From: Heliocidaris erythrogramma
Lineage: Eukaryota > Echinodermata > Echinoidea > Camarodonta > Echinometridae
NCBI GenBank assembly: GCA_025617745.1
Contig: CM046864.1
Location: forward strand, 2,751,624 to 2,815,623
DNA: 64,000 nt
Reading direction: 5' to 3'
The notes below the pieces were generated by a model, which was not told the origin of the DNA, did no database searches, and was given only the letters and a program-made list of their open reading frames with translations. Within the stretch, counting starts at the first letter, position 1. Every line of letters starts with the position of its first letter. The position numbers were made by a program, and so were the translations under genes. This document shows, in pieces, positions 1-48,344 of this stretch.

Positions 1-10
1 GTAGACTTAC

Positions 11-253
11 CATTAACCGTCACCGTTACGGTACAGCTCGCCGAATTACCAGCAGCATCACTTGCTGTGTATGTCACTTCCGTGCTTCCGATGGGGTAAG
101 CATTGCCCTCTGGCTGGCCACTAGGTGTCACACTTGCAATGCCAACATTGTCTGTTGCAGTGGCGTTCTGCAAGGTAACCGTAGCTGTGCTCTGTCCATT
201 ATCAGTATATACGCTCATATTCTGTGGGCAAGTTATTCCTGGATTTTCGTCAT
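11..253 (-). CDS. HYR exon 1 (leftmost)
   Basis: Variant code TQAVQT. Donor and acceptor intact. Confidence 0.85.
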
Positions 254-451
254 CTGTTAGAATGAATAATAACAAAGAGGACGAGCAAACAGCAGAATTA
301 GCCAAATGAAACTTTTTTTTCTTTCCAATGTAAGAGAAGTTCATTTCCTTTCTTTTACACTTCAGAATGACAATTCAAAATTTGGGACACTTCAAAGACA
401 CTGCACGTTACATATTCTATGTTGTTTCGAAATCTTACTTCGTAGACTTAC

Positions 452-694
452 CATTAACCGTCACCGTTACGGTACAGCTCGCCGAATTACCAGCAGCATC
501 ACTTGCTGTGTATGTCACTTCCGTGCTTCCGATGGGGTAAGCATTGCCTTCTGGCTGGCCACTAGGTGTCACACTTGCAATGCCAACATTGTCTGTTGCA
601 GTGGCGTTCTGCAAGGTAACCGTAGCTGTGCTCTGTCCATTATCAGTATATACGCTCATATTCTGTGGGCAAGTTATTCCTGGATTTTCGTCAT
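452..694 (-). CDS. HYR exon 2
   Basis: Variant code TQAVQT, identical protein to exon 1; one silent change at codon 49. Long relic-bearing intron on the 5' (right) side. Confidence 0.85.
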
Positions 695-1078
695 CTGTTA
701 GAATGAACAATAACAAAGAGGACGAGCAAACAGCAGAATTAGCCAAATGAAACTTTTTTTTCTTTCCAATGTAAGAGAAGTTCATTTGCTTTCTTTTACT
801 TAAGAATGACAATTCAAAATTTGGGACACTTCAAAAACATGGGGTAATATGTGATAGGGCAAGTTATTCCTGGATTTTCGTCATCTGTTAGAATGAACAA
901 TAACAAAGAGGACGAGCAAGTAGAAGAATTAGTCACATGGAACTTTTTTCTCTCATGTAAGAGAAGTTAATTTCCTTCCTTTTACACTTCAGAATGACAA
1001 TTCAAAATTTGGGACACGTCAAAGACACTCCACGTTACATATTCTATTTTGTTTCCATATCTTACTTCGTAGACTTAC

Positions 1079-1321
1079 CATTAACCGTTACCGTTACGGT
1101 ACAGCTCGCCGAATTACCAGCAGCATCACTTGCTATGTATGTCACTTCCGTGCTTCCGATGGGGTAAGCATTGCCCTCTGGCTGGCCACTAGGTGTCACA
1201 CTTTCAATGCCAACATTGTCTGTTGCAGTGGCGTTCTGCAAGGTAACCGTAGCTGTGCTCTGTCCATTATCAGTATATACGCTCATATTCTGTGGGCAAG
1301 CTATTCCTGGATTTTCGTCAT
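1079..1321 (-). CDS. HYR exon 3
   Basis: Variant code AQEVQI. Confidence 0.85.
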
Positions 1322-1516
1322 CTGTTAGAATGAATAATAACAAAGAGGACGAGCAAACAGCAGAATTAGCCAAATGAAACTTTTTTTTTCTAATGTAAGA
1401 GAAGTTCATTTCCTTTCTTTTACACTTCAGAATGACAATTCAAAATTTGGGACACTTCAAAGACACTGCACGTTACATATTCTATGTTGTTTCAAAATCT
1501 TACTTCGTAGACTTAC

Positions 1517-1759
1517 CATTAACCGTCACCGTTACGGTACAGCTCGCCGAATTACCAGCAGCATCACTTGCTGTGTATGTCACTTCCGTGCTTCCGATGG
1601 GGTAAGCATTGCCCTCTGGATTGCCACTAGGTGTCACACTTGCAATGCCAACATTGTCTGTTGCAGTGGCGTTCTGCAAGGTAACCGTAGCTGTGCTCTG
1701 TCCATTATCAGTATATACGCTCATATTCTGTGGGCAAGTTATTCCTGGATTTTCGTCAT
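1517..1759 (-). CDS. HYR exon 4
   Basis: Variant code TQAVNT; first Asn47 copy. Relic in the intron to its right. Confidence 0.85.
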
Positions 1760-2143
1760 CTGTTAGAATGAACAATAACAAAGAGGACGAGCAAACAGCA
1801 GAATTAGCCAAATGAAACTTTTTTTCTTTCCAATGTAAGAGAAGTTCATTTGCTTTCTTTTACACTTAAGAATGACGATTCAAAATTGGGACACTTCAAA
1901 AACATGGGGTAATATGTGATAGGGCAAGTTATTCCTGGATTTTCGTCATCTGTTAGAATGAACAATAACAAAGAGGACGAGCAAGTAGAAGAATTAGTCA
2001 CATGGAACTTTTTTCTCTCATGTAAGAGAAGTTAATTTCCTTCCTTTTACACTTCAGAATGACAATTCAAAATTTGGGACACTTCAAAGACACTGCACGT
2101 TACATATTCTATGTTGTTTCAAAATCTTACTTCGTAGACTTAC

Positions 2144-2386
2144 CATTAACCGTCACCGTTACGGTACAGCTCGCCGAATTACCAGCAGCATCACTTGCTG
2201 TGTATGTCACTTCCGTGCTTCCGATGGGGTAAGCATTGCCCTCTGGCTGGCCACTAGGTGTCACACTTGCAATGCCAACATTGTCTGTTGCAGTGGCGTT
2301 CTGCAAGGTAACCGTAGCTGTGCTCTGTCCATTATCAGTATATACGCTCATATTCTGTGGGCAAGCTATTCCTGGATTTTCGTCAT
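2144..2386 (-). CDS. HYR exon 5
   Basis: Variant code AQAVQT. Confidence 0.85.
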
Positions 2387-2583
2387 CTGTTAGAATGAAT
2401 AATAACAAAGAGGACGAGCAAACAGCAGAATTAGCCAAATGAAACTTTTCTTATTTCTAATGTAAGAGAAGTTAATTTCCTTCCTTTTACACTTCAGAAT
2501 GACAATTCAAAATTTGGGACACGTCAAAGACACTGCACGTTACATATTCTATTTTGTTTCCATATCTTACTTCGTAGACTTAC

Positions 2584-2826
2584 CATTAACCGTTACCGTT
2601 ACGGTACAGCTCGCCGAATTACCAGCAGCATCACTTGCTATGTATGTCACTTCCGTGCTTCCGATGGGGTAAGCATTGCCCTCTGGCTGGCCACTAGGTG
2701 TCACACTTTCAATGCCAACATTGTCTGTTGCAGTGGCGTTCTGCAAGGTAACCGTAGCTGTGCTCTGTCCATTATCAGTATATACGCTCATATTCTGTGG
2801 GCAAGCTATTCCTGGATTTTCGTCAT
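2584..2826 (-). CDS. HYR exon 6
   Basis: Variant code AQEVQI. Confidence 0.85.
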
Positions 2827-3020
2827 CTGTTAGAATGAATAATAACAAAGAGGACGAGCAAACAGCAGAATTAGCCAAATGAAACTTTTTTTTTCTCATG
2901 TAAGAGAAGATCATTTCCTTTCTTTTACACTTCAGAATGACAATTCAAATTTGGGACACGTCAAAGACACTGCACGTTACATATTCTATTTTGTTTCCAT
3001 ATCTTACTTCGTAGACTTAC

Positions 3021-3263
3021 CATTAACCGTTACCGTTACGGTACAGCTCGCCGAATTACCAGCAGCATCACTTGCTGTGTATGTCACTTCCGTGCTTCCG
3101 ATGGGGTAAGCATTGCCCTCTGGATTGCCACTAGGTGTCACACTTGCAATGCCAACATTGTCTGTTGCAGTGGCGTTCTGCAAGGTAACCGTAGCTGTGC
3201 TCTGTCCATTATCAGTATATACGCTCATATTCTGTGGGCAAGTTATTCCTGGATTTTCGTCAT
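3021..3263 (-). CDS. HYR exon 7
   Basis: Variant code TQAVNT. Confidence 0.85.
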
Positions 3264-3459
3264 CTGTTAGAATGAATAATAACAAAGAGGACGAGCAAAC
3301 AGCAGAATTAGCCAAATGAAACTTTTCTTATTTCTAATGTAAGAGAAGATCATTTCCTTTCTTTTACACTTCAGAATGACAATTCAAAATTTGGGACACT
3401 TCAAAGACACTGCACGTTACATATTCTATTTTGTTTCCAATCTTACTTCGTAGACTTAC

Positions 3460-3702
3460 CATTAACCGTTACCGTTACGGTACAGCTCGCCGAATTACCA
3501 GCAGCATCACTTGCTATGTATGTCACTTCCGTGCTTCCGATGGGGTAAGCATTGCCCTCTGGCTGGCCACTAGGTGTCACACTTGCAATGCCAACATTGT
3601 CTGTTGCAGTGGCGTTCTGCAAGGTAACCGTAGCTGTGCTCTGTCCATTATCAGTATATACGCTCATATTCTGTGGGCAAGTTATTCCTGGATTTTCGTC
3701 AT
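3460..3702 (-). CDS. HYR exon 8
   Basis: Variant code TQAVQI. Relic in the intron to its right. Confidence 0.85.
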
Positions 3703-4087
3703 CTGTTAGAATGAACAATAACAAAGAGGACGAGCAAACAGCAGAATTAGCCAAATGAAACTTTTTTTTCTTTCCAATGTAAGAGAAGTTCATTTTCTTT
3801 CTTTTACACTTAAGAATGACAATTCAAAATTGGGACACTTCAAAAACATGGGGTAATATGTGATAGGGCAAGTTATTCCTGGATTTTCGTCATCTGTTAG
3901 AATGAACAATAACAAAGAGGACGAGCAAGTAGAAGAATTAGTCACATGGAACTTTTTTCTCTCATGTAAGAGAAGTTAATTTCCTTCCTTTTACACTTCA
4001 GAATGACAATTCAAAATTTGGGACACGTCAAAGACACTCCACGTTACATATTCTATTTTGTTTCCATATCTTACTTCGTAGACTTAC

Positions 4088-4330
4088 CATTAACCGTTAC
4101 CGTTACGGTACAGCTCGCCGAATTACCAGCAGCATCACTTGCTATGTATGTCACTTCCGTGCTTCCGATGGGGTAAGCATTGCCCTCTGGCTGGCCACTA
4201 GGTGTCACACTTGCAATACCAACATTGTCTGTTGCAGTGGCGTTCTGCAAGGTAACCGTAGCTGTGCTCTGTCCATTATCAGTATATACGCTCATATTCT
4301 GTGGGCAAGCTATTCCTGGATTTTCGTCAT
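4088..4330 (-). CDS. HYR exon 9
   Basis: Variant code AQAVQI, with a silent GGT for GGC at Gly38 shared with exons 16, 19 and 21. Confidence 0.85.
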
Positions 4331-4527
4331 CTGTTAGAATGAATAATAACAAAGAGGACGAGCAAACAGCAGAATTAGCCAAATGAAACTTTTCTTATTT
4401 CTAATGTAAGAGAAGATCATTTCCTTTCTTTTACACTTCAGAATGACAATTCAAAATTTGGGACACTTCAAAGACACTGCACGTTACATATTCTATGTTG
4501 TTTCAAAATCTTACTTCGTAGACTTAC

Positions 4528-4770
4528 CATTAACCGTCACCGTTACGGTACAGCTCGCCGAATTACCAGCAGCATCACTTGCTGTGTATGTCACTTCCGT
4601 GCTTCCGATGGGGTAAGCATTGCCCTCTGGCTGGCCACTAGGTGTCACACTTGCAATGCCAACATTGTCTGTTGCAGTGGCGTTCTGCAAGGTAACCGTA
4701 GCTGTGCTCTGTCCATTATCAGTATATACGCTCATATTCTGTGGGCAAGCTATTCCTGGATTTTCGTCAT
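4528..4770 (-). CDS. HYR exon 10
   Basis: Variant code AQAVQT. Confidence 0.85.
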
Positions 4771-4966
4771 CTGTTAGAATGAATAATAACAAAGAGGACG
4801 AGCAAACAGCAGAATTAGCCAAATGAAACTTTTCTTATTTCTTATGTAAGAGAAGATCATTTCCTTTCTTTTACACTTCAGAATGACAATTCAAAATTTG
4901 GGACACTTCAAAGACACTGCACGTTACATATTCTATGTTGTTTCAAAATCTTACTTGTAGACTTAC

Positions 4967-5209
4967 CATTAACCGTCACCGTTACGGTACAGCTCGCCGA
5001 ATTACCAGCAGCATCACTTGCTGTGTATGTCACTTCCGTGCTTCCGATGGGGTAAGCATTGCCCTCTGGATTGCCACTAGGTGTCACACTTGCAATGCCA
5101 ACATTGTCTGTTGCAGTGGCGTTCTGCAAGGTAACCGTAGCTGTGCTCTGTCCATTATCAGTATATACGCTCATATTCTGTGGGCAAGTTATTCCTGGAT
5201 TTTCGTCAT
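4967..5209 (-). CDS. HYR exon 11
   Basis: Variant code TQAVNT. The intron just past the donor lacks two bases, so the read-through frame is longer than in other copies; the donor itself is unchanged. Relic to its right. Confidence 0.85.
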
Positions 5210-5592
5210 CTGTTAGAATGAACAATAACAAAGAGGACGAGCAAACAGCAGAATTAGCCAAATGAAACTTTTTTTCTTTCCAATGTAAGAGAAGTTCATT
5301 TGCTTTCTTTTACACTTAAGAATGACGATTCAAAATTGGGACACTTCAAAACATGGGGTAATATGTGATAGGGCAAGTTATTCCTGGATTTTCGTCATCT
5401 GTTAGAATGAACAATAACAAAGAGGACGAGCAAGTAGAAGAATTAGTCACATGGAACTTTTTTCTCTCATGTAAGAGAAGTTAATTTCCTTCCTTTTACA
5501 CTTCAGAATGACAATTCAAAATTTGGGACACTTCAAAGACACTGCACGTTACATATTCTATGTTGTTTCAAAATCTTACTTCGTAGACTTAC

Positions 5593-5835
5593 CATTAACC
5601 GTCACCGTTACGGTACAGCTCGCCGAATTACCAGCAGCATCACTTGCTGTGTATGTCACTTCCGTGCTTCCGATGGGGTAAGCATTGCCCTCTGGATTGC
5701 CACTAGGTGTCACACTTGCAATGCCAACATTGTCTGTTGCAGTGGCGTTCTGCAAGGTAACCGTAGCTGTGCTCTGTCCATTATCAGTATATACGCTCAT
5801 ATTCTGTGGGCAAGCTATTCCTGGATTTTCGTCAT
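5593..5835 (-). CDS. HYR exon 12
   Basis: Variant code AQAVNT. Confidence 0.85.
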
Positions 5836-6032
5836 CTGTTAGAATGAATAATAACAAAGAGGACGAGCAAACAGCAGAATTAGCCAAATGAAACTTTTCT
5901 TATTTCTAATGTAAGAGAAGTTAATTTCCTTCCTTTTACACTTCAGAATGACAATTCAAAATTTGGGACACGTCAAAGACACTCCACGTTACATATTCTA
6001 TTTTGTTTCCATATCTTACTTCGTAGACTTAC

Positions 6033-6275
6033 CATTAACCGTTACCGTTACGGTACAGCTCGCCGAATTACCAGCAGCATCACTTGCTATGTATGTCACT
6101 TCCGTGCTTCCGATGGGGTAAGCATTGCCCTCTGGCTGGCCACTAGGTGTCACACTTTCAATGCCAACATTGTCTGTTGCAGTGGCGTTCTGCAAGGTAA
6201 CCGTAGCTGTGCTCTGTCCATTATCAGTATATACGCTCATATTCTGTGGGCAAGCTATTCCTGGATTTTCGTCAT
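6033..6275 (-). CDS. HYR exon 13
   Basis: Variant code AQEVQI. Confidence 0.85.
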
Positions 6276-6469
6276 CTGTTAGAATGAATAATAACAAAGA
6301 GGACAAGCAAACAGCAGAATTAGCCACATGAAACTTTTTTTTCTCATGTAAGAGAACTTCATTTCCTTTCTTTTACACTTCAGAATGACAATTCAAAATT
6401 TGGGACACGTCAAAGACACTGCACGTTACATATTCTATTTTGTTTCCATATCTTACTTCGTAGACTTAC

Positions 6470-6712
6470 CATTAACCGTTACCGTTACGGTACAGCTCGC
6501 CGAATTACCAGCAGCATCACTTGCTATGTATGTCACTTCCGTGCTTCCGATGGGGTAAGCATTGCCCTCTGGATTGCCACTAGGTGTCACACTTGCAATG
6601 CCAACATTGTCTGTTGCAGTGGCGTTCTGCAAGGTAACCGTAGCTGTGCTCTGTCCATTATCAGTATATACGCTCATATTCTGTGGGCAAGCTATTCCTG
6701 GATTTTCGTCAT
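6470..6712 (-). CDS. HYR exon 14
   Basis: Variant code AQAVNI, the only Asn47/Ile63 combination seen in the array. Confidence 0.85.
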
Positions 6713-6909
6713 CTGTTAGAATGAATAATAACAAAGAGGACGAGCAAACAGCAGAATTAGCCAAATGAAACTTTTCTTATTTCTAATGTAAGAGAAGATC
6801 ATTTCCTTTCTTTTACACTTCAGAATGACAATTCAAAATTTGGGACACGTCAAAGACACTGCACGTTACATATTCTATTTTGTTTCCATATCTTACTTCG
6901 TAGACTTAC

Positions 6910-7152
6910 CATTAACCGTTACCGTTACGGTACAGCTCGCCGAATTACCAGCAGCATCACTTGCTATGTATGTCACTTCCGTGCTTCCGATGGGGTAAGC
7001 ATTGCCCTCTGGCTGGCCACTAGGTGTAAAACTTGCAATGCCAACATTGTCTGTTGCAGTGGCGTTCTGCAAGGTAACCGTAGCTGTGCTCTGTCCATTA
7101 TCAGTATATACGCTCATATTCTGTGGGCAAGTTATTCCTGGATTTTCGTCAT
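6910..7152 (-). CDS. HYR exon 15
   Basis: Variant code TQAFQI: Val42 is replaced by Phe. Relic to its right. Confidence 0.85.
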
Positions 7153-7537
7153 CTGTTAGAATGAACAATAACAAAGAGGACGAGCAAACAGCAGAATTAG
7201 CCAAATGAAACTTTTTTTTCTTTCCAATGTAAGAGAAGTTCATTTTCTTTCTTTTACACTTAAGAATGACGATTCAAAATTGGGACACTTCAAAAACATG
7301 GGGTAATATGTGATAGGGCAAGTTATTCCTGGATTTTCGTCATCTGTTAGAATGAACAATAACAAAGAGGACGAGCAAGTAGAAGAATTAGTCACATGGA
7401 ACTTTTTTCTCTCATGTAAGAGAAGTTAATTTCCTTCCTTTTACACTTCAGAATGACAATTCAAAATTTGGGACACGTCAAAGACACTCCACGTTACATA
7501 TTCTATTTTGTTTCCATATCTTACTTCGTAGACTTAC

Positions 7538-7780
7538 CATTAACCGTTACCGTTACGGTACAGCTCGCCGAATTACCAGCAGCATCACTTGCTATGTATG
7601 TCACTTCCGTGCTTCCGATGGGGTAAGCATTGCCCTCTGGCTGGCCACTAGGTGTCACACTTGCAATACCAACATTGTCTGTTGCAGTGGCGTTCTGCAA
7701 GGTAACCGTAGCTGTGCTCTGTCCATTATCAGTATATACGCTTATATTCTGTGGGCAAGCTATTCCTGGATTTTCGTCAT
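7538..7780 (-). CDS. HYR exon 16
   Basis: Variant code AQAVQI plus Met13 to Ile. Confidence 0.85.
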
Positions 7781-7977
7781 CTGTTAGAATGAATAATAAC
7801 AAAGAGGACGAGCAAACAGCAGAATTAGCCAAATGAAACTTTTCTTATTTCTAATGTAAGAGAAGATCATTTCCTTTCTTTTACACTTCAGAATGACAAT
7901 TCAAAATTTGGGACACTTCAAAGACACTGCACGTTACATATTCTATGTTGTTTCAAAATCTTATTTCGTAGACTTAC

Positions 7978-8220
7978 CATTAACCGTCACCGTTACGGTA
8001 CAGCTCGCCGAATTACCAGCAGCATCACTTGCTGTGTATGTCACTTCCGTGCTTCCGATGGGGTAAGCATTGCCCTCTGGCTGGCCACTAGGTGTCACAC
8101 TTGCAATGCCAACATTGTCTGTTGCAGTGGCGTTCTGCAAGGTAACCGTAGCTGTGCTCTGTCCATTATCAGTATATACGCTCATATTCTGTGGGCAAGC
8201 TATTCCTGGATTTTCGTCAT
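7978..8220 (-). CDS. HYR exon 17
   Basis: Variant code AQAVQT. Confidence 0.85.
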
Positions 8221-8417
8221 CTGTTAGAATGAATAATAACAAAGAGGACGAGCAAACAGCAGAATTAGCCAAATGAAACTTTTCTTATTTCTTATGTAAG
8301 AGAAGATCATTTCCTTTCTTTTACACTTCAGAATGACAATTCAAAATTTGGGACACTTCAAAGACACTGCACGTTACATATTCTATGTTGTTTCGAAATC
8401 TTACTTTGTAGACTTAC

Positions 8418-8660
8418 CATTAACCGTCACCGTTACGGTACAGCTCGCCGAATTACCAGCAGCATCACTTGCTGTGTATGTCACTTCCGTGCTTCCGATG
8501 GGGTAAGCATTGCCCTCTGGATTGCCACTAGGTGTCACACTTGCAATGCCAACATTGTCTGTTGCAGTGGCGTTCTGCAAGGTAACCGTAGCTGTGCTCT
8601 GTCCATTATCAGTATATACGCTCATATTCTGTGGGCAAGTTATTCCTGGATTTTCGTCAT
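8418..8660 (-). CDS. HYR exon 18
   Basis: Variant code TQAVNT. Relic to its right. Confidence 0.85.
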
Positions 8661-9045
8661 CTGTTAGAATGAATAATAACAAAGAGGACGAGCAAACAGC
8701 AGAATTAGCCAAATGAAACTTTTTTTTCTTTCCAATGTAAGAGAAGTTCATTTGCTTTCTTTTACACTTAAGAATGACGATTCAAAATTGGGACACTTCA
8801 AAAACATGGGGTAATATGTGATAGGGCAAGTTATTCCTGGATTTTCGTCATCTGTTAGAATGAACAATAACAAAGAGGACGAGCAAGTAGAAGAATTAGT
8901 CACATGGAACTTTTTTCTCTCATGTAAGAGAAGTTAATTTCCTTCCTTTTACACTTCAGAATGACAATTCAAAATTTGGGACACGTCAAAGACACTCCAC
9001 GTTACATATTCTATTTTGTTTCCATATCTTACTTCGTAGACTTAC

Positions 9046-9288
9046 CATTAACCGTTACCGTTACGGTACAGCTCGCCGAATTACCAGCAGCATCACTTGC
9101 TATGTATGTCACTTCCGTGCTTCCGATGGGGTAAGCATTGCCCTCTGGCTGGCCACTAGGTGTCACACTTGCAATACCAACATTGTCTGTTGCAGTGGCG
9201 TTCTGCAAGGTAACCGTAGCTGTGCTCTGTCCATTATCAGTATATACGCTCATATTCTGTGGGCAAGCTATTCCTGGATTTTCGTCAT
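9046..9288 (-). CDS. HYR exon 19
   Basis: Variant code AQAVQI. Confidence 0.85.
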
Positions 9289-9485
9289 CTGTTAGAATGA
9301 ATAATAACAAAGAGGACGAGCAAACAGCAGAATTAGCCAAATGAAACTTTTCTTATTTCTAATGTAAGAGAAGATCATTTCCTTTCTTTTACACTTCAGA
9401 ATGACAATTCAAAATTTGGGACACTTCAAAGACACTGCACGTTACATATTCTATGTTGTTTCGAAATCTTACTTCGTAGACTTAC

Positions 9486-9728
9486 CATTAACCGTCACCG
9501 TTACGGTACAGCTCGCCGAATTACCAGCAGCATCACTTGCTATGTATGTCACTTCCGTGCTTCCGATGGGGTAAGCATTGCCCTCTGGCTGGCCACTAGG
9601 TGTCACACTTTCAATGCCAACATTGTCTGTTGCAGTGGCGTTCTGCAAGGTAACCGTAGCTGTGCTCTGTCCATTATCAGTATATACGCTCATATTCTGT
9701 GGGCAAGTTATTCCTGGATTTTCGTCAT
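9486..9728 (-). CDS. HYR exon 20
   Basis: Variant code TQEVQI. Relic to its right. Confidence 0.85.
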
Positions 9729-10113
9729 CTGTTAGAATGAACAATAACAAAGAGGACGAGCAAACAGCAGAATTAGCCAAATGAAACTTTTTTTCTTTCC
9801 AATGTAAGAGAAGTTCATTTTCTTTCTTTTACACTTAAGAATGACGATTCAAAATTTGGGACACTTCAAAAACATGGGGTAATATGTGATAGGGCAAGTT
9901 ATTCCTGGATTTTCGTCATCTGTTAGAATGAACAATAACAAAGAGGACGAGCAAGTAGAAGAATTAGTCACATGGAACTTTTTTCTCTCATGTAAGAGAA
10001 GTTAATTTCCTTCCTTTTACACTTCAGAATGACAATTCAAAATTTGGGACACGTCAAAGACACTCCACGTTACATATTCTATTTTGTTTCCATATCTTAC
10101 TTCGTAGACTTAC

Positions 10114-10356
10114 CATTAACCGTTACCGTTACGGTACAGCTCGCCGAATTACCAGCAGCATCACTTGCTATGTATGTCACTTCCGTGCTTCCGATGGGGT
10201 AAGCATTGCCCTCTGGCTGGCCACTAGGTGTCACACTTGCAATACCAACATTGTCTGTTGCAGTGGCGTTCTGCAAGGTAACCGTAGCTGTGCTCTGTCC
10301 ATTATCAGTATATACGCTCATATTCTGTGGGCAAGCTATTCCTGGATTTTCGTCAT
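10114..10356 (-). CDS. HYR exon 21
   Basis: Variant code AQAVQI. Confidence 0.85.
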
Positions 10357-10553
10357 CTGTTAGAATGAATAATAACAAAGAGGACGAGCAAACAGCAGAA
10401 TTAGCCAAATGAAACTTTTTTTCTTTCCAATGTAAGAGAAGTTAATTTCCTTCCTTTTACACTTCAGAATGACAATTCAAAATTTGGGACACGTCAAAGA
10501 CACTCCACGTTACATATTCTATTTTGTTTCCATATCTTACTTCGTAGACTTAC

Positions 10554-23536: not shown

Positions 23537-23729
23537 CTGTTAGAATGAATAATAACAAAGAGACAAGCAAACAGCAGAATTAGCCACATGAAACTTTTTT
23601 TTCTCATGTAAGAGAATTTCATTTCCTTTCTTTTACACTTCAGAATGACAATTCAAATTTTGGGACACGTCAAAGACACTTCACGTTACATATTCTATTT
23701 TGTTTCAATATCTTACTTCGTAGACTTAC

Positions 23730-23972
23730 CATTAACCTTTACCGTTACGGTACAGCTCGCCGAATTACCAGCAGCATCACTTGCTGTGTATGTCACTTCC
23801 GTGCTTCCGATGGGGTAAGCATTGCCCTCTGGATTGCCACTAGGTGTCACACTTTCAATGCCAACATTGTCTGTTGCAGTGGCGTTCTGCAAGGTAACCG
23901 TAGCTGTGCTCTGTCCATTATCAGTATATACGCTCATATTCTGTGGGCAAGTTATTCCTGGATTTTCGTCAT
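23730..23972 (-). CDS. HYR exon 49
   Basis: Variant code TQEVNT plus Thr79 to Lys. Confidence 0.85.
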
Positions 23973-24170
23973 CTGTTAGAATGAATAATAACAAAGAGGA
24001 CGAGCAAACAGCAGAATTAGCCAAATGAAACTTTTTTTTCTTTCCAATGTAAGAGAAGTTCATTTGCTTTCTTTTACACTTAAGAATGACAATTCAAAAT
24101 TTGGGACACTTCAAAGACACTGCACGTTACATATTCTATGTTGTTTCAAAATCTTACTTCGTAGACTTAC

Positions 24171-24413
24171 CATTAACCGTCACCGTTACGGTACAGCTCG
24201 CCGAATTACCAGCAGCATCACTTGCTGTGTATGTCACTTCCGTGCTTCCGATGGGGTAAGCATTGCCCTCTGGCTTGCCACTAGGTGTCACACTTTCAAT
24301 GCCAACATTGTCTGTTGCAGTGGCGTTCTGCAAGGTAACCGTAGCTGTGCTCTGTCCATTATCAGTATATACGCTCATATTCTGTGGGCAAGCTATTCCT
24401 GGATTTTCGTCAT
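24171..24413 (-). CDS. HYR exon 50
   Basis: Variant code AQEVKT. Confidence 0.85.
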
Positions 24414-24610
24414 CTGTTAGAATGAATAATAACAAAGAGGACGAGCAAACAGCAGAATTAGCCACATGAAACTTTTCTTATTTCTAATGTAAGAGAAGAT
24501 CATTTCCTTTCTTTTACACTTCAGAATGACAATTCAAAATTTGGGACACTTCAAAGACACTGCACGTTACATATTCTATTTTGTTTCCATATCTTACTTC
24601 GTAGACTTAC

Positions 24611-24853
24611 CATTAACCGTTACCGTTACGGTACAGCTCGCCGAATTACCAGCAGCATCACTTGCTATGTATGTCACTTCCGTGCTTCCGATGGGGTAAG
24701 CATTGCCCTCTGGCTGGCCACTAGGTGTCACACTTTCAATGCCAACATTGTCTGTTGCAGTGGCGTTCTGCAAGGTAACCGTAGCTGTGCTCTGTCCATT
24801 ATCAGTATATACGCTCATATTCTGTGGGCAAGCTATTCCTGGATTTTCGTCAT
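24611..24853 (-). CDS. HYR exon 51
   Basis: Variant code AQEVQI. Confidence 0.85.
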
Positions 24854-25050
24854 CTGTTAGAATGAATAATAACAAAGAGGACGAGCAAACAGCAGAATTA
24901 GCCAAATGAAACTTTTCTTATTTCTAATGTAAGAGAAGATCATTTCCTTTCTTTTACACTTCAGAATGACAATTCAAAATTTGGGACACTTCAAAGACAC
25001 TGCACGTTACATATTCTATGTTGTTTCGAAATCTTACTTCGTAGACTTAC

Positions 25051-25293
25051 CATTAACCGTCACCGTTACGGTACAGCTCGCCGAATTACCAGCAGCATCA
25101 CTTGCTGTGTATGTCACTTCCGTGCTTCCGATGGGGTAAGCATTGCCCTCTGGATTGCCACTAGGTGTCACACTTGCAATGCCAACATTGTCTGTTGCAG
25201 TGGCGTTCTGCAAGGTAACCGTAGCTGTGCTCTGTCCATTATCAGTATATACGCTCATATTCTGTGGGCAAGTTATTCCTGGATTTTCGTCAT
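25051..25293 (-). CDS. HYR exon 52
   Basis: Variant code TQAVNT. Relic to its right. Confidence 0.85.
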
Positions 25294-25678
25294 CTGTTAG
25301 AATGAACAATAACAAAGAGGACGAGCAAACAGCAGAATTAGCCAAATGAAACTTTTCTTATTTCTAATGTAAGAGAAGATCATTTCCTTTCCTTTACATT
25401 TCAAAATGACAATTCAAAATTTGGGACACTTCAAAAACATGGGGTAATATGTGATAGGGCAAGTTATTCCTGGATTTTCGTCATCTGTTAGAATGAACAA
25501 TAACAAAGAGCACGAGCAAGTAGAAGAATTAGTCACATGGAACTTTTTTCTCTCATGTAAGAGAAGTTAATTTCCTTCCTTTTACACTTCAGAATGACGA
25601 TTCAAAATTTGGGACACGTCAAAGACACTCCACGTTACATATTCTATTTTGTTTCCATATCTTACTTCGTAGACTTAC

Positions 25679-25921
25679 CATTAACCGTTACCGTTACGGT
25701 ACAGCTCGCCGAATTACCAGCAGCATCACTTGCTATGTATGTCACTTCCGTGCTTCCGATGGGGTAAGCATTGCCCTCTGGCTGGCCACTAGGTGTCACA
25801 CTTTCAATGCCAACATTGTCTGTTGCAGTGGCGTTCTGCAAGGTAACCGTAGCTGTGCTCTGTCCATTATCAGTATATACGCTCATATTCTGTGGGCAAG
25901 CTATTCCTGGATTTTCGTCAT
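25679..25921 (-). CDS. HYR exon 53
   Basis: Variant code AQEVQI. Confidence 0.85.
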
Positions 25922-26118
25922 CTGTTAGAATGAATAATAACAAAGAGGACGAGCAAACAGCAGAATTAGCCAAATGAAACTTTTCTTATTTCTAATGTAA
26001 GAGAAGATCATTTCCTTTCTTTTACACTTCAGAATGACAATTCAAAATTTGGGACACTTCAAAGACACTGCACGTTACATATTCTATGTTGTTTCGAAAT
26101 CTTACTTCGTAGACTTAC

Positions 26119-26361
26119 CATTAACCGTCACCGTTACGGTACAGCTCGCCGAATTACCAGCAGCATCACTTGCTGTGTATGTCACTTCCGTGCTTCCGAC
26201 GGGGTAAGCATTGCCCTCTGGATTGCCACTAGGTGTCACACTTGCAATGCCAACATTGTCTGTTGCAGTGGCGTTCTGCAAGGTAACCGTAGCTGTGCTC
26301 TGTCCATTATCAGTATATACGCTCATATTCTGTGGGCAAGTTATTCCTGGATTTTCGTCAT
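26119..26361 (-). CDS. HYR exon 54
   Basis: Variant code TQAVNT plus Ile55 to Val. Relic to its right. Confidence 0.85.
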
Positions 26362-26746
26362 CTGTTAGAATGAACAATAACAAAGAGGACGAGCAAACTG
26401 CAGAATTAGCCAAATGAAACTTTTCTTATTTCTAATGTAAGAGAAGATCATTTCCTTTCCTTTACATTTCAAAATGACAATTCAAAATTTGGGACACTTC
26501 AAAAACATGGGGTAATATGTGATAGGGCAAGTTATTCCTGGATTTTCGTCATCTGTTAGAATGAACAATAACAAAGAGCACGAGCAAGTAGAAGAATTAG
26601 TCACATGGAACTTTTTTCTCTCATGTAAGAGAAGTTAATTTCCTTCCTTTTACACTTCAGAATGACGATTCAAAATTTGGGACTCGTCAAAGACACTCCA
26701 CGTTACATATTCTATTTTGTTTCCATATCTTACTTCGTAGACTTAC

Positions 26747-26989
26747 CATTAACCGTTACCGTTACGGTACAGCTCGCCGAATTACCAGCAGCATCACTTG
26801 CTATGTATGTCACTTCCGTGCTTCCGATGGGGTAAGCATTGCCCTCTGGCTGGCCACTAGGTGTCATACTTTCAATGCCAACATTGTCTGTTGCAGTGGC
26901 GTTCTGCAAGGTAACCGTAGCTGTGCTCCGTCCATTATCAGTATATACGCTCATATTCTGTGGGCAAGCTATTCCTGGATTTTCGTCAT
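26747..26989 (-). CDS. HYR exon 55
   Basis: Variant code AREMQI; first exon of four-exon block A. Confidence 0.85.
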
Positions 26990-27186
26990 CTGTTAGAATG
27001 AATAATAACAAAGAGGACGAGCAAACAGCAGAATTAGCCAAATGAAACTTTTCTTATTTCTAATGTAAGAGAAGATCATTTCCTTTCTTTTACACTTTAG
27101 AATGACAATTCAAAATTTGGGACACTTCAAAGACACTGCACGTTACATATTCTATGTTGTTTCAAAATCTTACTTCGTAGACTTAC

Positions 27187-27429
27187 CATTAACCGTCACC
27201 GTTACGGTACAGCTCGCCGAATTACCAGCAGCATCACTTGCTGTGTATGTCACTTCCGTGCTTCCGATGGGGTAAGCATTGCCCTCTGGCTGGCCACTAG
27301 GCGTCACACTTTCAATGCCAACATTGTCTGTTGCAGTGGCGTTCTGCAAGGTAACCGTAGCTGTGCTCTGTCCATTATCAGTATATACGCTCATATTCTG
27401 TGGGCAAGCTATTCCTGGATTTTCGTCAT
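27187..27429 (-). CDS. HYR exon 56
   Basis: Variant code AQEVQT; its acceptor-side intron differs from most copies in a way shared only with exons 60 and 66. Confidence 0.85.
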
Positions 27430-27623
27430 CTGTTAGAATGAATAATAACAAAGAGAACAAGCAAACAGCAGAATTAGCCACATTAAACTTTTTTTTCTCA
27501 TGTAAGAGAATTTCATTTCCTTTCTTTTACACTTCAGAACGACAATTCAAATTTTGGGACACGTCAAAGACACTTCACGTTACATATTCTATTTTGTTTC
27601 AATATCTTACTTCGTATACTTAC

Positions 27624-27866
27624 CATTAACCTTTACTGTTACGGTACAGCTCGCCGAATTACCAGCAGCATCACTTGCTGTGTATGTCACTTCCGTGCTT
27701 CCGATGGGGTAAGTATTGCCCTCTGGATTGCCACTAGGTGTCACACTTTCAATGCCAACATTGTCTGTTGCAGTGGCGTTGTGCAAGGTAACCGTTGTTG
27801 TGCTCTGTCCATTATCAGTATATACGCTCATATTCTGTGGGCAAGTTATTCCTGGATTTTCGTCAT
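27624..27866 (-). CDS. HYR exon 57 (divergent type)
   Basis: Variant code TQEVNT with Ala24Thr, Gln29His, Ala52Thr and Thr79Lys. The sequence after the donor also differs. Same type as exons 61 and 67. Confidence 0.85.
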
Positions 27867-28064
27867 CTGTTAGAATGAATAATAACAAAGAGGACGAGCA
27901 AACAGCAGAATTAGCCAAATGAAACTTTTTTTTCTTTCCAATGTAAGAGAAGTTCATTTGCTTTCTTTTACACTTAAGAATGACAATTCAAAATTTGGGA
28001 CACTTCAAAGACACTGCACGTTACATATTCTATGTTGTTTCAAAATCTTACTTCGTAGACTTAC

Positions 28065-28307
28065 CATTAACCGTCACCGTTACGGTACAGCTCGCCGAAT
28101 TACCAGCAGCATCACTTGCTGTGTATGTCACTTCCGTGCTTCCGATGGGGTAAGCATTGCCCTCTGGCTTGCCACTAGGTGTCACACTTTCAATGCCAAC
28201 ATTGTCTGTTGCAGTGGCGTTCTGCAAGGTAACCGTAGCTGTGCTCCGTCCATTATCAGTATATACGCTCATATTCTGTGGGCAAGCTATTCCTGGATTT
28301 TCGTCAT
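28065..28307 (-). CDS. HYR exon 58
   Basis: Variant code AREVKT; last exon of block A. Confidence 0.85.
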
Positions 28308-28504
28308 CTGTTAGAATGAATAATAACAAAGAGGACGAGCAAACAGCAGAATTAGCCACATGAAACTTTTCTTATTTCTAATGTAAGAGAAGATCATTTC
28401 CTTTCTTTTACACTTCAGAATGACAATTCAAAATTTGGGACACTTCAAAGACACTGCACGTTACATATTCTATTTTGTTTCCATATCTTACTTCGTAGAC
28501 TTAC

Positions 28505-28747
28505 CATTAACCGTTACCGTTACGGTACAGCTCGCCGAATTACCAGCAGCATCACTTGCTATGTATGTCACTTCCGTGCTTCCGATGGGGTAAGCATTGC
28601 CCTCTGGCTGGCCACTAGGTGTCATACTTTGAATGCCAACATTGTCTGTTGCAGTGGCGTTCTGCAAGGTAACCGTAGCTGTGCTCCGTCCATTATCAGT
28701 ATATACGCTCATATTCTGTGGGCAAGCTATTCCTGGATTTTCGTCAT
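28505..28747 (-). CDS. HYR exon 59
   Basis: Variant code ARQMQI: residue 40 is Gln, unique in the array. First exon of block B, exactly 1,758 bp from exon 55. Confidence 0.85.
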
Positions 28748-28944
28748 CTGTTAGAATGAATAATAACAAAGAGGACGAGCAAACAGCAGAATTAGCCAAA
28801 TGAAACTTTTCTTATTTCTAATGTAAGAGAAGATCATTTCCTTTCTTTTACACTTTAGAATGACAATTCAAAATTTGGGACACTTCAAAGACACTGCACG
28901 TTACATATTCTATGTTGTTTCAAAATCTTACTTCGTAGACTTAC

Positions 28945-29187
28945 CATTAACCGTCACCGTTACGGTACAGCTCGCCGAATTACCAGCAGCATCACTTGCT
29001 GTGTATGTCACTTCCGTGCTTCCGATGGGGTAAGCATTGCCCTCTGGCTGGCCACTAGGCGTCACACTTTCAATGCCAACATTGTCTGTTGCAGTGGCGT
29101 TCTGCAAGGTAACCGTAGCTGTGCTCTGTCCATTATCAGTATATACGCTCATATTCTGTGGGCAAGCTATTCCTGGATTTTCGTCAT
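28945..29187 (-). CDS. HYR exon 60
   Basis: Variant code AQEVQT. Confidence 0.85.
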
Positions 29188-29381
29188 CTGTTAGAATGAA
29201 TAATAACAAAGAGAACAAGCAAACAGCAGAATTAGCCACATTAAACTTTTTTTTCTCATGTAAGAGAATTTCATTTCCTTTCTTTTACACTTCAGAACGA
29301 CAATTCAAATTTTGGGACACGTCAAAGACACTTCACGTTACATATTCTATTTTGTTTCAATATCTTACTTCGTATACTTAC

Positions 29382-29624
29382 CATTAACCTTTACTGTTAC
29401 GGTACAGCTCGCCGAATTACCAGCAGCATCACTTGCTGTGTATGTCACTTCCGTGCTTCCGATGGGGTAAGTATTGCCCTCTGGATTGCCACTAGGTGTC
29501 ACACGTTCAATGCCAACATTGTCTGTTGCAGTGGCGTTGTGCAAGGTAACCGTTGTTGTGCTCTGTCCATTATCAGTATATACGCTCATATTCTGTGGGC
29601 AAGTTATTCCTGGATTTTCGTCAT
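29382..29624 (-). CDS. HYR exon 61 (divergent type)
   Basis: Variant code TQEVNT with Ala24Thr, Gln29His, Ala52Thr, Thr79Lys and a private Ser41Arg. Confidence 0.85.
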
Positions 29625-29822
29625 CTGTTAGAATGAATAATAACAAAGAGGACGAGCAAACAGCAGAATTAGCCAAATGAAACTTTTTTTTCTTTCCAAT
29701 GTAAGAGAAGTTCATTTGCTTTCTTTTACACTTAAGAATGACAATTCAAAATTTGGGACACTTCAAAGACACTGCACGTTACATATTCTATGTTGTTTCA
29801 AAATCTTACTTCGTAGACTTAC

Positions 29823-30065
29823 CATTAACCGTCACCGTTACGGTACAGCTCGCCGAATTACCAGCAGCATCACTTGCTGTGTATGTCACTTCCGTGCTTC
29901 CGATGGGGTAAGCATTGCCCTCTGGCTTGCCACTAGGTGTCACACTTTCAATGCCAACATTGTCTGTTGCAGTGGCGTTCTGCAAGGTAACCGTAGCTGT
30001 GCTCCGTCCATTATCAGTATATACGCTCATATTCTGTGGGCAAGCTATTCCTGGATTTTCGTCAT
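29823..30065 (-). CDS. HYR exon 62
   Basis: Variant code AREVKT; last exon of block B. Confidence 0.85.
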
Positions 30066-30262
30066 CTGTTAGAATGAATAATAACAAAGAGGACGAGCAA
30101 ACAGCAGAATTAGCCACATGAAACTTTTCTTATTTCTAATGTAAGAGAAGATCATTTCCTTTCTTTTACACTTCAGAATGACAATTCAAAATTTGGGACA
30201 CTTCAAAGACACTGCACGTTACATATTCTATTTTGTTTCCATATCTTACTTCGTAGACTTAC

Positions 30263-30505
30263 CATTAACCGTTACCGTTACGGTACAGCTCGCCGAATTA
30301 CCAGCAGCATCACTTGCTATGTATGTCACTTCCGTGCTTCCGATGGGGTAAGCATTGCCCTCTGGCTGGCCACTAGGTGTCACACTTTCAATGCCAACAT
30401 TGTCTGTTGCAGTGGCGTTCTGCAAGGTAACCGTAGCTGTGCTCTGTCCATTATCAGTATATACGCTCATATTCTGTGGGCAAGCTATTCCTGGATTTTC
30501 GTCAT
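30263..30505 (-). CDS. HYR exon 63
   Basis: Variant code AQEVQI. Confidence 0.85.
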
Positions 30506-30702
30506 CTGTTAGAATGAATAATAACAAAGAGGACGAGCAAACAGCAGAATTAGCCAAATGAAACTTTTCTTATTTCTAATGTAAGAGAAGATCATTTCCT
30601 TTCTTTTACACTTCAGAATGACAATTTAAAATTTGGGACACTTCAAAGACACTGCACGTTACATATTCTATGTTGTTTCGAAATCTTACTTCGTAGACTT
30701 AC

Positions 30703-30945
30703 CATTAACCGTCACCGTTACGGTACAGCTCGCCGAATTACCAGCAGCATCACTTGCTGTGTATGTCACTTCCGTGCTTCCGATGGGGTAAGCATTGCCC
30801 TCTGGCTGGCCACTAGGTGTCACACTTTCAATGCCAACATTGTCTGTTGCAGTGGCGTTCTGCAAGGTAACCGTAGCTGTGCTCTGTCCATTATCAGTAT
30901 ATACGCTCATATTCTGTGGGCAAGTTATTCCTGGATTTTCGTCAT
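30703..30945 (-). CDS. HYR exon 64
   Basis: Variant code TQEVQT. Relic to its right, the 5'-most of the 17. Confidence 0.85.
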
Positions 30946-31330
30946 CTGTTAGAATGAACAATAACAAAGAGGACGAGCAAACTGCAGAATTAGCCAAATG
31001 AAACTTTTCTTATTTCTAATGTAAGAGAAGATCATTTCCTTTCCTTTACATTTCAAAATGACAATTCAAAATTTGGGACACTTCAAAAACATGGGGTAAT
31101 ATGTGATAGGGCAAGTTATTCCTGGATTTTCGTCATCTGTTAGAATGAACAATAACAAAGAGCACGAGCAAGTAGAAGAATTAGTCACATGGAACTTTTT
31201 TCTCTCATGTAAGAGAAGTTAATTTCCTTCCTTTTACACTTCAGAATGACGATTCAAAATTTGGGACTCGTCAAAGACACTCCACGTTACATATTCTATT
31301 TTGTTTCCATATCTTACTTCGTAGACTTAC

Positions 31331-31573
31331 CATTAACCGTTACCGTTACGGTACAGCTCGCCGAATTACCAGCAGCATCACTTGCTATGTATGTCACTTC
31401 CGTGCTTCCGATGGGGTAAGCATTGCCCTCTGGCTGGCCACTAGGTGTCATACTTTCAATGCCAACATTGTCTGTTGCAGTGGCGTTCTGCAAGGTAACC
31501 GTAGCTGTGCTCCGTCCATTATCAGTATATACGCTCATATTCTGTGGGCAAGCTATTCCTGGATTTTCGTCAT
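31331..31573 (-). CDS. HYR exon 65
   Basis: Variant code AREMQI; first exon of block C. Confidence 0.85.
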
Positions 31574-31770
31574 CTGTTAGAATGAATAATAACAAAGAGG
31601 ACGAGCAAACAGCAGAATTAGCCAAATGAAACTTTTCTTATTTCTAATGTAAGAGAAGATCATTTCCTTTCTTTTACACTTTAGAATGACAATTCAAAAT
31701 TTGGGACACTTCAAAGACACTGCACGTTACATATTCTATGTTGTTTCAAAATCTTACTTCGTAGACTTAC

Positions 31771-32013
31771 CATTAACCGTCACCGTTACGGTACAGCTCG
31801 CCGAATTACCAGCAGCATCACTTGCTGTGTATGTCACTTCCGTGCTTCCGATGGGGTAAGCATTGCCCTCTGGCTGGCCACTAGGCGTCACACTTTCAAT
31901 GCCAACATTGTCTGTTGCAGTGGCGTTCTGCAAGGTAACCGTAGCTGTGCTCTGTCCATTATCAGTATATACGCTCATATTCTGTGGGCAAGCTATTCCT
32001 GGATTTTCGTCAT
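31771..32013 (-). CDS. HYR exon 66
   Basis: Variant code AQEVQT. Confidence 0.85.
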
Positions 32014-32207
32014 CTGTTAGAATGAATAATAACAAAGAGAACAAGCAAACAGCAGAATTAGCCACATTAAACTTTTTTTTCTCATGTAAGAGAATTTCAT
32101 TTCCTTTCTTTTACACTTCAGAACGACAATTCAAATTTTGGGACACGTCAAAGACACTTCACGTTACATATTCTATTTTGTTTCAATATCTTACTTCGTA
32201 TACTTAC

Positions 32208-32450
32208 CATTAACCTTTACTGTTACGGTACAGCTCGCCGAATTACCAGCAGCATCACTTGCTGTGTATGTCACTTCCGTGCTTCCGATGGGGTAAGTAT
32301 TGCCCTCTGGATTGCCACTAGGTGTCACACTTTCAATGCCAACATTGTCTGTTGCAGTGGCGTTGTGCAAGGTAACCGTTGTTGTGCTCTGTCCATTATC
32401 AGTATATACGCTCATATTCTGTGGGCAAGTTATTCCTGGATTTTCGTCAT
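32208..32450 (-). CDS. HYR exon 67 (divergent type)
   Basis: Variant code TQEVNT with Ala24Thr, Gln29His, Ala52Thr and Thr79Lys, the same protein as exon 57. Confidence 0.85.
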
Positions 32451-32648
32451 CTGTTAGAATGAATAATAACAAAGAGGACGAGCAAACAGCAGAATTAGCC
32501 AAATGAAACTTTTTTTTCTTTCCAATGTAAGAGAAGTTCATTTGCTTTCTTTTACACTTAAGAATGACAATTCAAAATTTGGGACACTTCAAAGACACTG
32601 CACGTTACATATTCTATGTTGTTTCAAAATCTTACTTCGTAGACTTAC

Positions 32649-32891
32649 CATTAACCGTCACCGTTACGGTACAGCTCGCCGAATTACCAGCAGCATCACT
32701 TGCTGTGTATGTCACTTCCGTGCTTCCGATGGGGTAAGCATTGCCCTCTGGCTTGCCACTAGGTGTCACACTTTCAATGCCAACATTGTCTGTTGCAGTG
32801 GCGTTCTGCAAGGTAACCGTAGCTGTGCTCCGTCCATTACCAGTATATACGCTCATATTCTGTGGGCAAGCTATTCCTGGATTTTCGTCAT
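32649..32891 (-). CDS. HYR exon 68
   Basis: Variant code AREVKT plus a private Asp18Gly; last exon of block C. Confidence 0.85.
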
Positions 32892-33088
32892 CTGTTAGAA
32901 TGAATAATAACAAAGAGGACGAGCAAACAGCAGAATTAGCCACATGAAACTTTTCTTATTTCTAATGTAAGAGAAGATCATTTCCTTTCTTTTACACTTC
33001 AGAATGACAATTCAAAATTTGGGACACTTCAAAGACACTGCACGTTACATATTCTATGTTGTTTCAAAATCTTACTTCGTAGACTTAC

Positions 33089-33331
33089 CATTAACCGTCA
33101 CCGTTACGGTACAGCTCGCCGAATTACCAGCAGCATCACTTGCTGTGTATGTCACTTCCGTTCTTCCGGTGGGGTAAGCATTGCCCTCTGGATTGCCACT
33201 AGGTGTCACACTTGCAATGCCAACATTGTCTGTTGCAGTGGCGTTGTGCAAGGTAACCGTAGCTGTGCTCTGTCCATTATCAGTATATACGCTCATATTC
33301 TGTGGGCAAGTTATTCCTGGATTTTCGTCAT
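33089..33331 (-). CDS. HYR exon 69
   Basis: Variant code TQAVNT with Gln29His, Ile55Thr and Ser57Arg; private changes increase from here toward the array edge. Confidence 0.85.
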
Positions 33332-33523
33332 CTGTTAGAATGAACAATAACAAAGAGGACGAGCAAACAGCAGAATTAGCCAAATGAAACTTTTTTTTCT
33401 TTCCAATGTAAGAGAAGTTCATTTGCTTTCTTTTACACTTAAGAATGACAATTCAAAATTTGGGACACTTCACGTTTACTTACATATTCTATTTTGTTTC
33501 CATATCTTACTTCGTAGACTTAC

Positions 33524-33766
33524 CATTAACCGTTACCGTTACGGTACAGCTCGCCGAATTACCAGCAGCATCGCTTGCTATGTATGTCACTTTCGTGCTT
33601 CCGATGGGGTAAGCATTGCCCTCTGGCTTGCCACTAGGTGTCATACTTTCAATGCCAACATTGTCTGTTGCAGTGGCGTTCTGCAAGGTAACCGTAGCTG
33701 TGCTCCGTCCATTATCAGTATATACGCTCATATTCTGTGGGCAAGCTATTCCTGGATTTTCGTCAT
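33524..33766 (-). CDS. HYR exon 70
   Basis: Variant code AREMKI with Glu59Lys, an otherwise unseen combination. Confidence 0.85.
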
Positions 33767-33963
33767 CTGTTAGAATGAATAATAACAAAGAGGACGAGCA
33801 AACAGCAGAATTAGCCAAATGAAACTTTTCTTATTTCTAATGTAAGAGAAGATCATTTCCTTTCTTTTACACTTTAGAATGACAATTCAAAATTTGGGAC
33901 ACTTCAAAGACACTGCACGTTACATATTCTATGTTGTTTCAAAATCTTACTTCGTAGACTTAC

Positions 33964-34206
33964 CATTAACCGTCACCGTTACGGTACAGCTCGCCGAATT
34001 ACCAGCAGCATCACTTGCTGTGTATGTCACTTCCGTGCTTCCGATGGGGTAAGCATTGCCCTCTGGCTGGCCACTAGGCGTCACACTTTCAATGCCAACA
34101 TTGTCTGTTGCAGTGGCGTTCTGCAAGGTAACCGTAGCTGTGCTCTGTCCATTATCAGTATATACACTCATATTTTGTGGGCAAGTTATTACTGGATTTT
34201 CGTCAT
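33964..34206 (-). CDS. HYR exon 71 (last complete, 5'-most)
   Basis: Variant code TQEVQT with Gly6Val. Acceptor intact but with a diverged intron beyond it. Confidence 0.83.
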
Positions 34207-34399
34207 CTGTTAGAATGAACAATAACAAAGAGGACGAGCAAACAGCAGAATTAGCCAAATGAAACTTTTTATATCTAATGTAAGAGAAGTTCATTTCCTT
34301 TCTTTTACACTTCAGAATGACAATTCAAAATTTGGGACACTTCAAAGACACTGCACGTTACATATTCTGTTGTTTCCATTTCTTACTTCATAGACTTAC

Positions 34400-34476
34400 C
34401 ATTAACCGTTACCGTTACTGTACAGCTCGCCGAATTACCAGCAGCATCACTTGATGTGTATGTCACTTCCGTGCTT
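34400..34476 (-). pseudogene. HYR exon 72, 5' truncated relic at the array boundary
   Basis: Only the last 77 bp survive (residues 57-81, with Ala64Ser) together with the intact GTAAGT donor. Homology stops abruptly at 34476 and unrelated sequence follows, so the exon has lost its acceptor and Cys9. It cannot be spliced as a normal internal exon. Confidence 0.85.
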
Positions 34477-48328: not shown

Positions 48329-48344
48329 AAAATTACCAATATTT

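Follow-up and report, generated by a model that had tools for sequence, protein, structure and literature searches.

A 64,000-nucleotide stretch of the genome of the sea urchin Heliocidaris erythrogramma (assembly GCA_025617745.1, contig CM046864.1, here C12, positions 2,751,624-2,815,623; this whole stretch is called the window) carries on its minus strand part of a 72.4-kb tandem array of near-identical exons, each encoding one HYR domain. On balance the array is probably the stalk region of a gene for an extracellular protein with the order (EGF-A)-[HYR-A]n-HYR-B-EGF-C-EGF-D-cbEGF-NIDO, HYR-A being the repeated exon, and has grown and been homogenised by exchange under purifying selection. 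A further 100 kb was fetched on either side of the window and 274 kb were read in all, to a left limit at C12:2,641,624; searches of the assembly covered 1.06 Gb in 26 contigs. The COX1 match, on contig C24, contains 11 TGA codons, and AAA stands in it where Asn is conserved, in keeping with the echinoderm genetic code (table 9). Coordinates are those of the window unless a contig is named, with negative values to the left of the window start; the gene reads from right to left (minus strand), so that its 5' side is to the right.

An nhmmer search with a single exon as query returned 72 matches in the window, 71 full-length exons and one truncated exon at the array edge. This bears out the count of at least 71 near-identical tandem exons given in an earlier reading of the letters alone (the sequence-only reading). 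Seventy of the full-length exons measure 243 nt and one 242 nt, and the frame is open in 70 of the 71, the exception lying at 12502-12743. The acceptor ATTCTAACAG and the donor GTAAGT are present in all 71 and a codon is split after its first nucleotide (1 + 2) at both ends, in agreement with the earlier assignment of every exon to phase 1-1. The identity of the repeated domain was likewise confirmed by a match to PF02494 over residues 1-80 (E 3.8e-20, 72.4 bits against a curated cut-off of 21.7). The proposed addition of more than 5,700 residues holds nominally (71 x 81 = 5,751), but the 70 open exons give 5,670. No RNA families or tRNAs were found in the 64-kb window. The array and its individual exons are as follows.

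11..34206, minus strand: 71 full-length HYR exons in tandem, all phase 1-1, with a repeat unit of about 440 bp; the array continues left to C12:2,713,735
34400..34476 (recognisable part), minus strand: HYR exon cut short where the array ends on its 5' side, donor kept, 5' part replaced by other, repeat-rich DNA
12502..12743, minus strand: frameshifted HYR exon, 1-nt deletion (GAGGGC to GAGGC) with a stop inside the exon
11..253, minus strand: intact HYR exon typical of the array; its structural model is nearly all beta
Exon high ends, 5' to 3' (1): 34206, 33766, 33331, 32891, 32450, 32013, 31573, 30945, 30505, 30065, 29624, 29187, 28747, 28307, 27866, 27429, 26989, 26361
Exon high ends, 5' to 3' (2): 25921, 25293, 24853, 24413, 23972, 23536, 23096, 22468, 22028, 21591, 21150, 20713, 20274, 19834, 19394, 18957, 18517, 18077
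Exon high ends, 5' to 3' (3): 17450, 17010, 16383, 15943, 15316, 14876, 14249, 13809, 13369, 12743, 12304, 11864, 11236, 10796, 10356, 9728, 9288, 8660
Exon high ends, 5' to 3' (4): 8220, 7780, 7152, 6712, 6275, 5835, 5209, 4770, 4330, 3702, 3263, 2826, 2386, 1759, 1321, 694, 253

The array continues beyond the window, as had been suggested, and covers 72,418 bp (C12:2,713,735-2,786,152, window 34529 to -37888) with 146 HYR matches. Intact 243-nt exons make up 141 of these (54 distinct DNA and 42 distinct protein sequences), the other five being the edge exon, two exons with a 1-nt deletion, one with a deletion and a stop, and the last exon. This last exon (-37650) is open over 243 nt and has the donor GTAGGT, and open phase 1-1 exons number 142 of 146 in the whole array. 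GTAAGT ends 144 of the matches, the remaining two running on to GTAGGT. The two exons that share the 1-nt GAGGGC deletion lie 38 kb apart on different exon backgrounds, for which conversion, recurrent mutation or error are all candidate explanations. Among the best 150 matches for the HYR-A repeat in the genome, 144 are in the array and six at C13:38.467-38.481 Mb with 63% identity.

Mean pairwise identity between exons 2-138 of the series is 98.4%. Compared with their consensus in blocks of ten from 5' to 3', the open exons show identities of 97.9, 97.9 and 98.8%, then 98.8-99.3% in the centre, then 98.6 and 97.2%. Unequal exchange in tandem arrays is expected to leave divergence toward both edges. 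Repeat distances of 440, 1068, 1508 and 2498 bp recur along the array. The introns, a point absent from the sequence-only reading, are near-identical as well, with a mean diversity (pi) of 0.037 in 98 short introns (those of 185-200 nt, out of 145) compared with 0.018 in the 141 exons used for this purpose out of 146. Long introns of 383-389 nt account for 38 of the 145, and in 36 of these a deletion has left behind a second acceptor with the first 28 nt of an exon. An exact 23-nt deletion junction is shared by 37 introns and absent from the rest of the 274 kb read, so that a single deletion event has spread. The sequence-only reading likewise does not mention these exon remnants, the frameshift at 12502-12743 or the minus-strand orientation. 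Edge divergence, repeat distances and the shared intron junction together support the earlier proposal of homogenisation by unequal exchange or conversion, which has spread variants through the array, introns included.

695..1078, minus strand: example of a long intron, 384 nt, with an exon remnant (acceptor and first 28 exon nt)

Evidence that selection has acted on the exons came from comparison with the introns of the same array. Distinct exon substitutions number 58 where 94 would be expected at the intron rate and spectrum (P 4e-5), with replacement changes at 41 compared with 70.7 expected (P 9e-5), silent changes at 17 compared with 20.2 (P 0.28) and stop changes at 0 compared with 3.4 (P 0.03), these and the following P values being rough because array copies are not independent. 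Across 143 exons a single type of indel was seen, whereas the 98 introns show 15 types (Poisson P 5e-11; 5e-8 if poly-T indels are set aside); when the deleted penultimate exon is counted this becomes two types in 145 exons (P 5e-10, or 4e-7 without poly-T indels). Diversity at donor positions +1 to +6 is 0 in the 98 short introns, compared with 0.042 in the intron interior. As the exons carry far fewer indels and replacements than the introns, it can be concluded that the array has been coding. Misaligned recombination between copies would add or remove whole domains, and since the cassettes are symmetrical (phase 1-1), gain or loss of copies leaves the frame unshifted. Repeated unequal exchange and conversion, combined with purifying selection on exons and splice sites, have probably multiplied a single HYR exon in this way to some 145 copies, of which 142 are open.

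Downstream of the array a series of further exons is found on the same strand. The HYR chain would precede EGF modules and a NIDO-containing region. The boundaries of HYR-B and the three EGF exons, as judged by eye, look to be phase 1 at both ends. The interval between HYR-B and EGF-C was covered by HYR profile, EGF pattern and Cys content.

-39597..-39355, minus strand: HYR-B, PF02494 at 41.9 bits
near -86.5 kb, minus strand: EGF-C
near -99.3 kb, minus strand: EGF-D
near -100.4 kb, minus strand: cbEGF
-108399..-107899, minus strand: NIDO, PF06119 at 28.4 bits against a cut-off of 25, profile positions 100-185

Further evidence for this arrangement came from a search of the genome with HYR-B, EGF-A, cbEGF, EGF-C and NIDO peptides, in which absences refer to the matches listed (for most queries the best 150) and carry little weight. 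Eight EGF-C loci were compared, seven on C12 (84-100% identity) and one at C7:44,567,376 (47%), the latter chosen by position. HYR-B lies upstream on the same strand at five of the eight (C12 2.665, 1.051, 1.927 and 1.968 Mb, and C7), cbEGF downstream at seven (none near 1.927 Mb among the matches listed) and NIDO downstream at six (none near 1.927 or 1.968 Mb among the matches listed); a contrary exon order was seen at none. This recurring order supports, for the 3' side, the earlier claim that the array lies within one gene. EGF-A is upstream on the same strand at this locus and at four others (1.05, 1.93, 4.21 and 5.47 Mb), where it is separated by about 120-260 kb. Because these distances are large and other EGF-A matches (C3; C12 3.13, 4.02, 5.51, 6.10 and 8.72 Mb) fit no such locus, the membership of EGF-A in the gene is loose and can only be suggested.

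Exons other than HYR-A have also been amplified in this genome, and we infer from order and strand that each amplified array forms a single gene with its neighbours.

C7:44.488-44.557 Mb: HYR-B array, at least 63 copies among the matches listed (best 150)
C12:2.020-2.046 Mb: HYR-B array, at least 24 copies among the matches listed (best 150)
C12:5.302-5.348 Mb: EGF-A array, 20 of the 41 EGF-A matches; 122 kb upstream of EGF-C
C12:4,729,362-4,784,648: cbEGF array, at least 118 copies, most at intervals of 412-420 bp; a distant NIDO (4.708-4.710 Mb) lies downstream
C20:34.683-34.721 Mb: HYR array, at least 27 matches; then, on the same strand, AMOP (34.620 Mb) and VWD (34.612 Mb)

At C7:34,165,666-34,368,710 there are at least 49 HYR matches, 63-67% identical to HYR-B and many of them about 412-420 bp apart. 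Another near-identical coding tandem array, at C9:6,011,929-6,063,224, consists of 21 VWD matches that all have the same score and follow one another at intervals of 2,573-2,576 bp in almost every case (a single gap is 1,709).

The properties of the predicted protein were computed from the 141 intact units joined in order, with the broken exons left out. These give 11,421 residues, 1,144.5 kDa, an isoelectric point (pI) of 4.05 and a charge of about -1168 at pH 7. Lysine and arginine are absent from 121 of the 141 units, and the longest run free of both is 3,888 residues. Each of two N-glycosylation sequons is present in 140 of the 141 units (both in 139), and all 141 contain two Cys. HYR domains as a class have an Ig-like beta-sandwich fold. 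For the repeat studied here, an AlphaFold2 model of 80 residues, made from a 50-row alignment of four window exons and 46 bacterial HYR stretches, is nearly all beta with a mean pLDDT of 94.7; prediction from a single sequence was poor (pLDDT 51.5). The PDB structures that Foldseek placed nearest were SraP modules and domains of the PKD, Big, S-layer and cadherin types (best E 3.6e-3, TMq about 0.5-0.7). A sequence search of the PDB for an HYR relative gave no match up to E 1 with the single sequence and weak matches with a profile (best E 0.038), with no hyalin entry among them. If the exons are transcribed and spliced together, they would encode a chain of Ig/cadherin-like domains of about 11,400 residues and 1.14 MDa before glycosylation, acidic (pI about 4), with two sequons per domain and almost free of lysine and arginine. 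Such domains may form a long rod, and a hyalin- or mucin-like role in a matrix or cell coat may be envisaged.

Several observations weigh against the gene and protein proposed here. The NIDO match reaches just 28.4 bits and the gap between HYR-B and EGF-C is 47 kb. Of the eight NIDO matches of at least 83% identity, the one at this locus among them, three (C12 5.827, 1.390 and 1.427 Mb; 83-85%) lack a neighbouring EGF-C or cbEGF among the matches listed, and at three more distant NIDO/cbEGF pairs (C12 3.92-3.95, 6.04-6.07 and 6.13-6.15 Mb) the cbEGF is 3' of NIDO. Measured against what the introns predict, the replacement/silent ratio is no lower than about 0.69, and several replacement variants are common (330 replacement and 109 silent when weighted), which speaks against strong constraint on the protein. 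No PDB match was returned by Foldseek at E <= 0.001. The 1-nt GAGGGC deletion is present in two exons, at 12502-12743 and -26280..-26039, and a third (-37241, the penultimate) has an internal deletion and a stop; these three broken exons, if included, would end the protein early. The single continuous reading frame implied by the sequence-only reading is thus not supported in this haplotype, where two of the 146 matches are frameshifted and one has a stop. A working 5' end is not supported either. All three upstream EGF-A remnants are broken, a search for more exons from window 34.5 kb to +164 kb with the HYR profile and EGF/Cys patterns gave only these remnants, and in the 130 kb read upstream the same profile and patterns, which are not gene prediction, picked out neither a start exon nor one for a signal peptide.

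43655..43756, minus strand: EGF-A exon, whole, phase-1 donor, acceptor AT in place of AG; Pfam EGF matches below curated cut-offs
61814..61878, minus strand: second EGF-A remnant, AG acceptor present, truncated, joined to a TAA repeat and a long interspersed nuclear element (LINE)-like 3' end; no Pfam match
61317..61363, minus strand: third EGF-A remnant, truncated; nhmmer E 3.2e-6

Three upstream open reading frames were run against Pfam (window 50632-52665, 43578-43754 and 61655-62005). Window 47369-52665 contains LINE-like reading frames on the minus strand, of which 50632-52665 has an Exo_endo_phos match and is retroelement-like. Elsewhere in this flank, similar repeat copies are present at 34585-34865 and 61497-61778 (92%), a diverged ATC microsatellite of 2.1 kb with strong GC skew at 36063-38175, and a tandem repeat with periods of 119, 120 and 198 bp (93-95% matches) at 57763-58518.

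It is possible, if unlikely, that the DNA array is real and belongs, in this haplotype, to a dead or decaying gene, which lost its 5' part to repeat insertions so recently that the exons still look constrained. The truncated edge exon beside LINE-like DNA, the three broken EGF-A exons, the start exon that was not found and the three exons with a frameshift or stop are all in keeping with such decay. However, apart from the edge exon just three of the 146 matches lack an open frame, exons contain far fewer indels than introns do, and the splice donors are almost invariant. Furthermore, unselected broken copies should have spread by exchange, as did the deletion carried by 37 introns. A rather more doubtful alternative is that the array is transcribed and only subsets of its exons are included, so that skipping yields size isoforms and removes the frameshifted exons too. 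All window cassettes are phase 1-1 with the same splice sites, and skipping would make the three broken exons harmless, but the splice sites are uniformly strong, which favours inclusion.

Hyalin, of about 330 kDa, provides a close comparison. According to PMC9382459 (citing Wessel 1998), this large glycoprotein is made up of hyaline repeats and forms an extraembryonic matrix for cell adhesion. The gene studied here resembles hyalin and other HYR proteins (PF02494) in its tandem HYR domains with sequons, acidic extracellular type and echinoderm setting, and might be the hyalin of this species. This is very unlikely, since the genome has many other HYR arrays, close HYR-A copies occur at this locus only among the matches listed (best 150), and hyalin is not known to contain NIDO and EGF parts like those of the proposed gene. 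In architecture it also differs by its roughly 145 near-identical single-exon copies with EGF and NIDO downstream, hyalin being much smaller. Expansion of a shorter array by mis-assembly, which the high identity and regular higher-order periods could suggest, is scarcely credible given that the longest exact repeat is 2,011 bp, short in relation to long reads, that there is no exact duplicate of 2.5 kb or more, that both edges are divergent and flanked by non-array DNA, and that arrays of other exons exist in the same genome.

The gene with an amplified stalk, proposed above as the probable reading, can be compared with several other systems. MUC4-type proteins have a NIDO-AMOP-VWD architecture, in which a long repeated stalk precedes the NIDO region. 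NIDO is also downstream of the repeats here, and the C20 locus of the same genome has an HYR array followed by AMOP and VWD; the repeats are, in contrast to mucin repeats, folded HYR domains. The gene is not assigned to the MUC4 group, as neither AMOP nor VWD was found above the cut-off at this locus and none of the 25 AMOP and 146 VWD matches in the genome lies on C12, the locus having been read to C12:2,641,624. HycP of Clostridium cellulolyticum, a 250-kDa protein with 23 HYR repeats according to a passage of PMC3723904, shares the HYR repeats but is bacterial and carries CBM3. HYR, NIDO and AMOP are listed among the domains of one proteome, the coral skeletome, in part of PMC7853314. The LPA KIV-2 repeat is described in an excerpt of PMC11462820 as a coding exon variable number tandem repeat. 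Both have near-identical in-frame coding units, here 142 open phase 1-1 exons with 98.4% core identity. They differ in unit and number, the array here repeating one exon of 243 nt per 440 bp or so about 145 times, as known from one haplotype only. The best reading is that the array may evolve in the manner of the LPA KIV-2 exon array. No description of a comparable array was found in titles and abstract openings of open-licence PMC articles, which is weak evidence of absence.

The related loci raise a broader idea. It is plausible, if somewhat short of probable, that these genes form a family whose C-terminal EGF-NIDO part is fixed, each paralog having independently amplified a different single phase-1 exon (HYR-A, HYR-B, EGF-A or cbEGF) to 20-146 copies, with selection keeping a very long, sugar-coated, protease-poor stalk and being indifferent to the domain from which it is built. 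As related loci have a stalk made from a different exon, it may be stalk length and not domain identity that is kept. Proteins of this kind may be routinely missed, since short-read assemblies are expected to collapse the array and trypsin-based proteomics would hardly detect a predicted protein with stretches of up to 3,888 residues free of lysine and arginine. As an instance of concerted evolution within a coding gene the array is extreme, its exons and introns having been homogenised together with selection still visible. The related loci, several of which have amplified another exon, offer natural replicates in which to ask whether selection acts on the length of the array itself.

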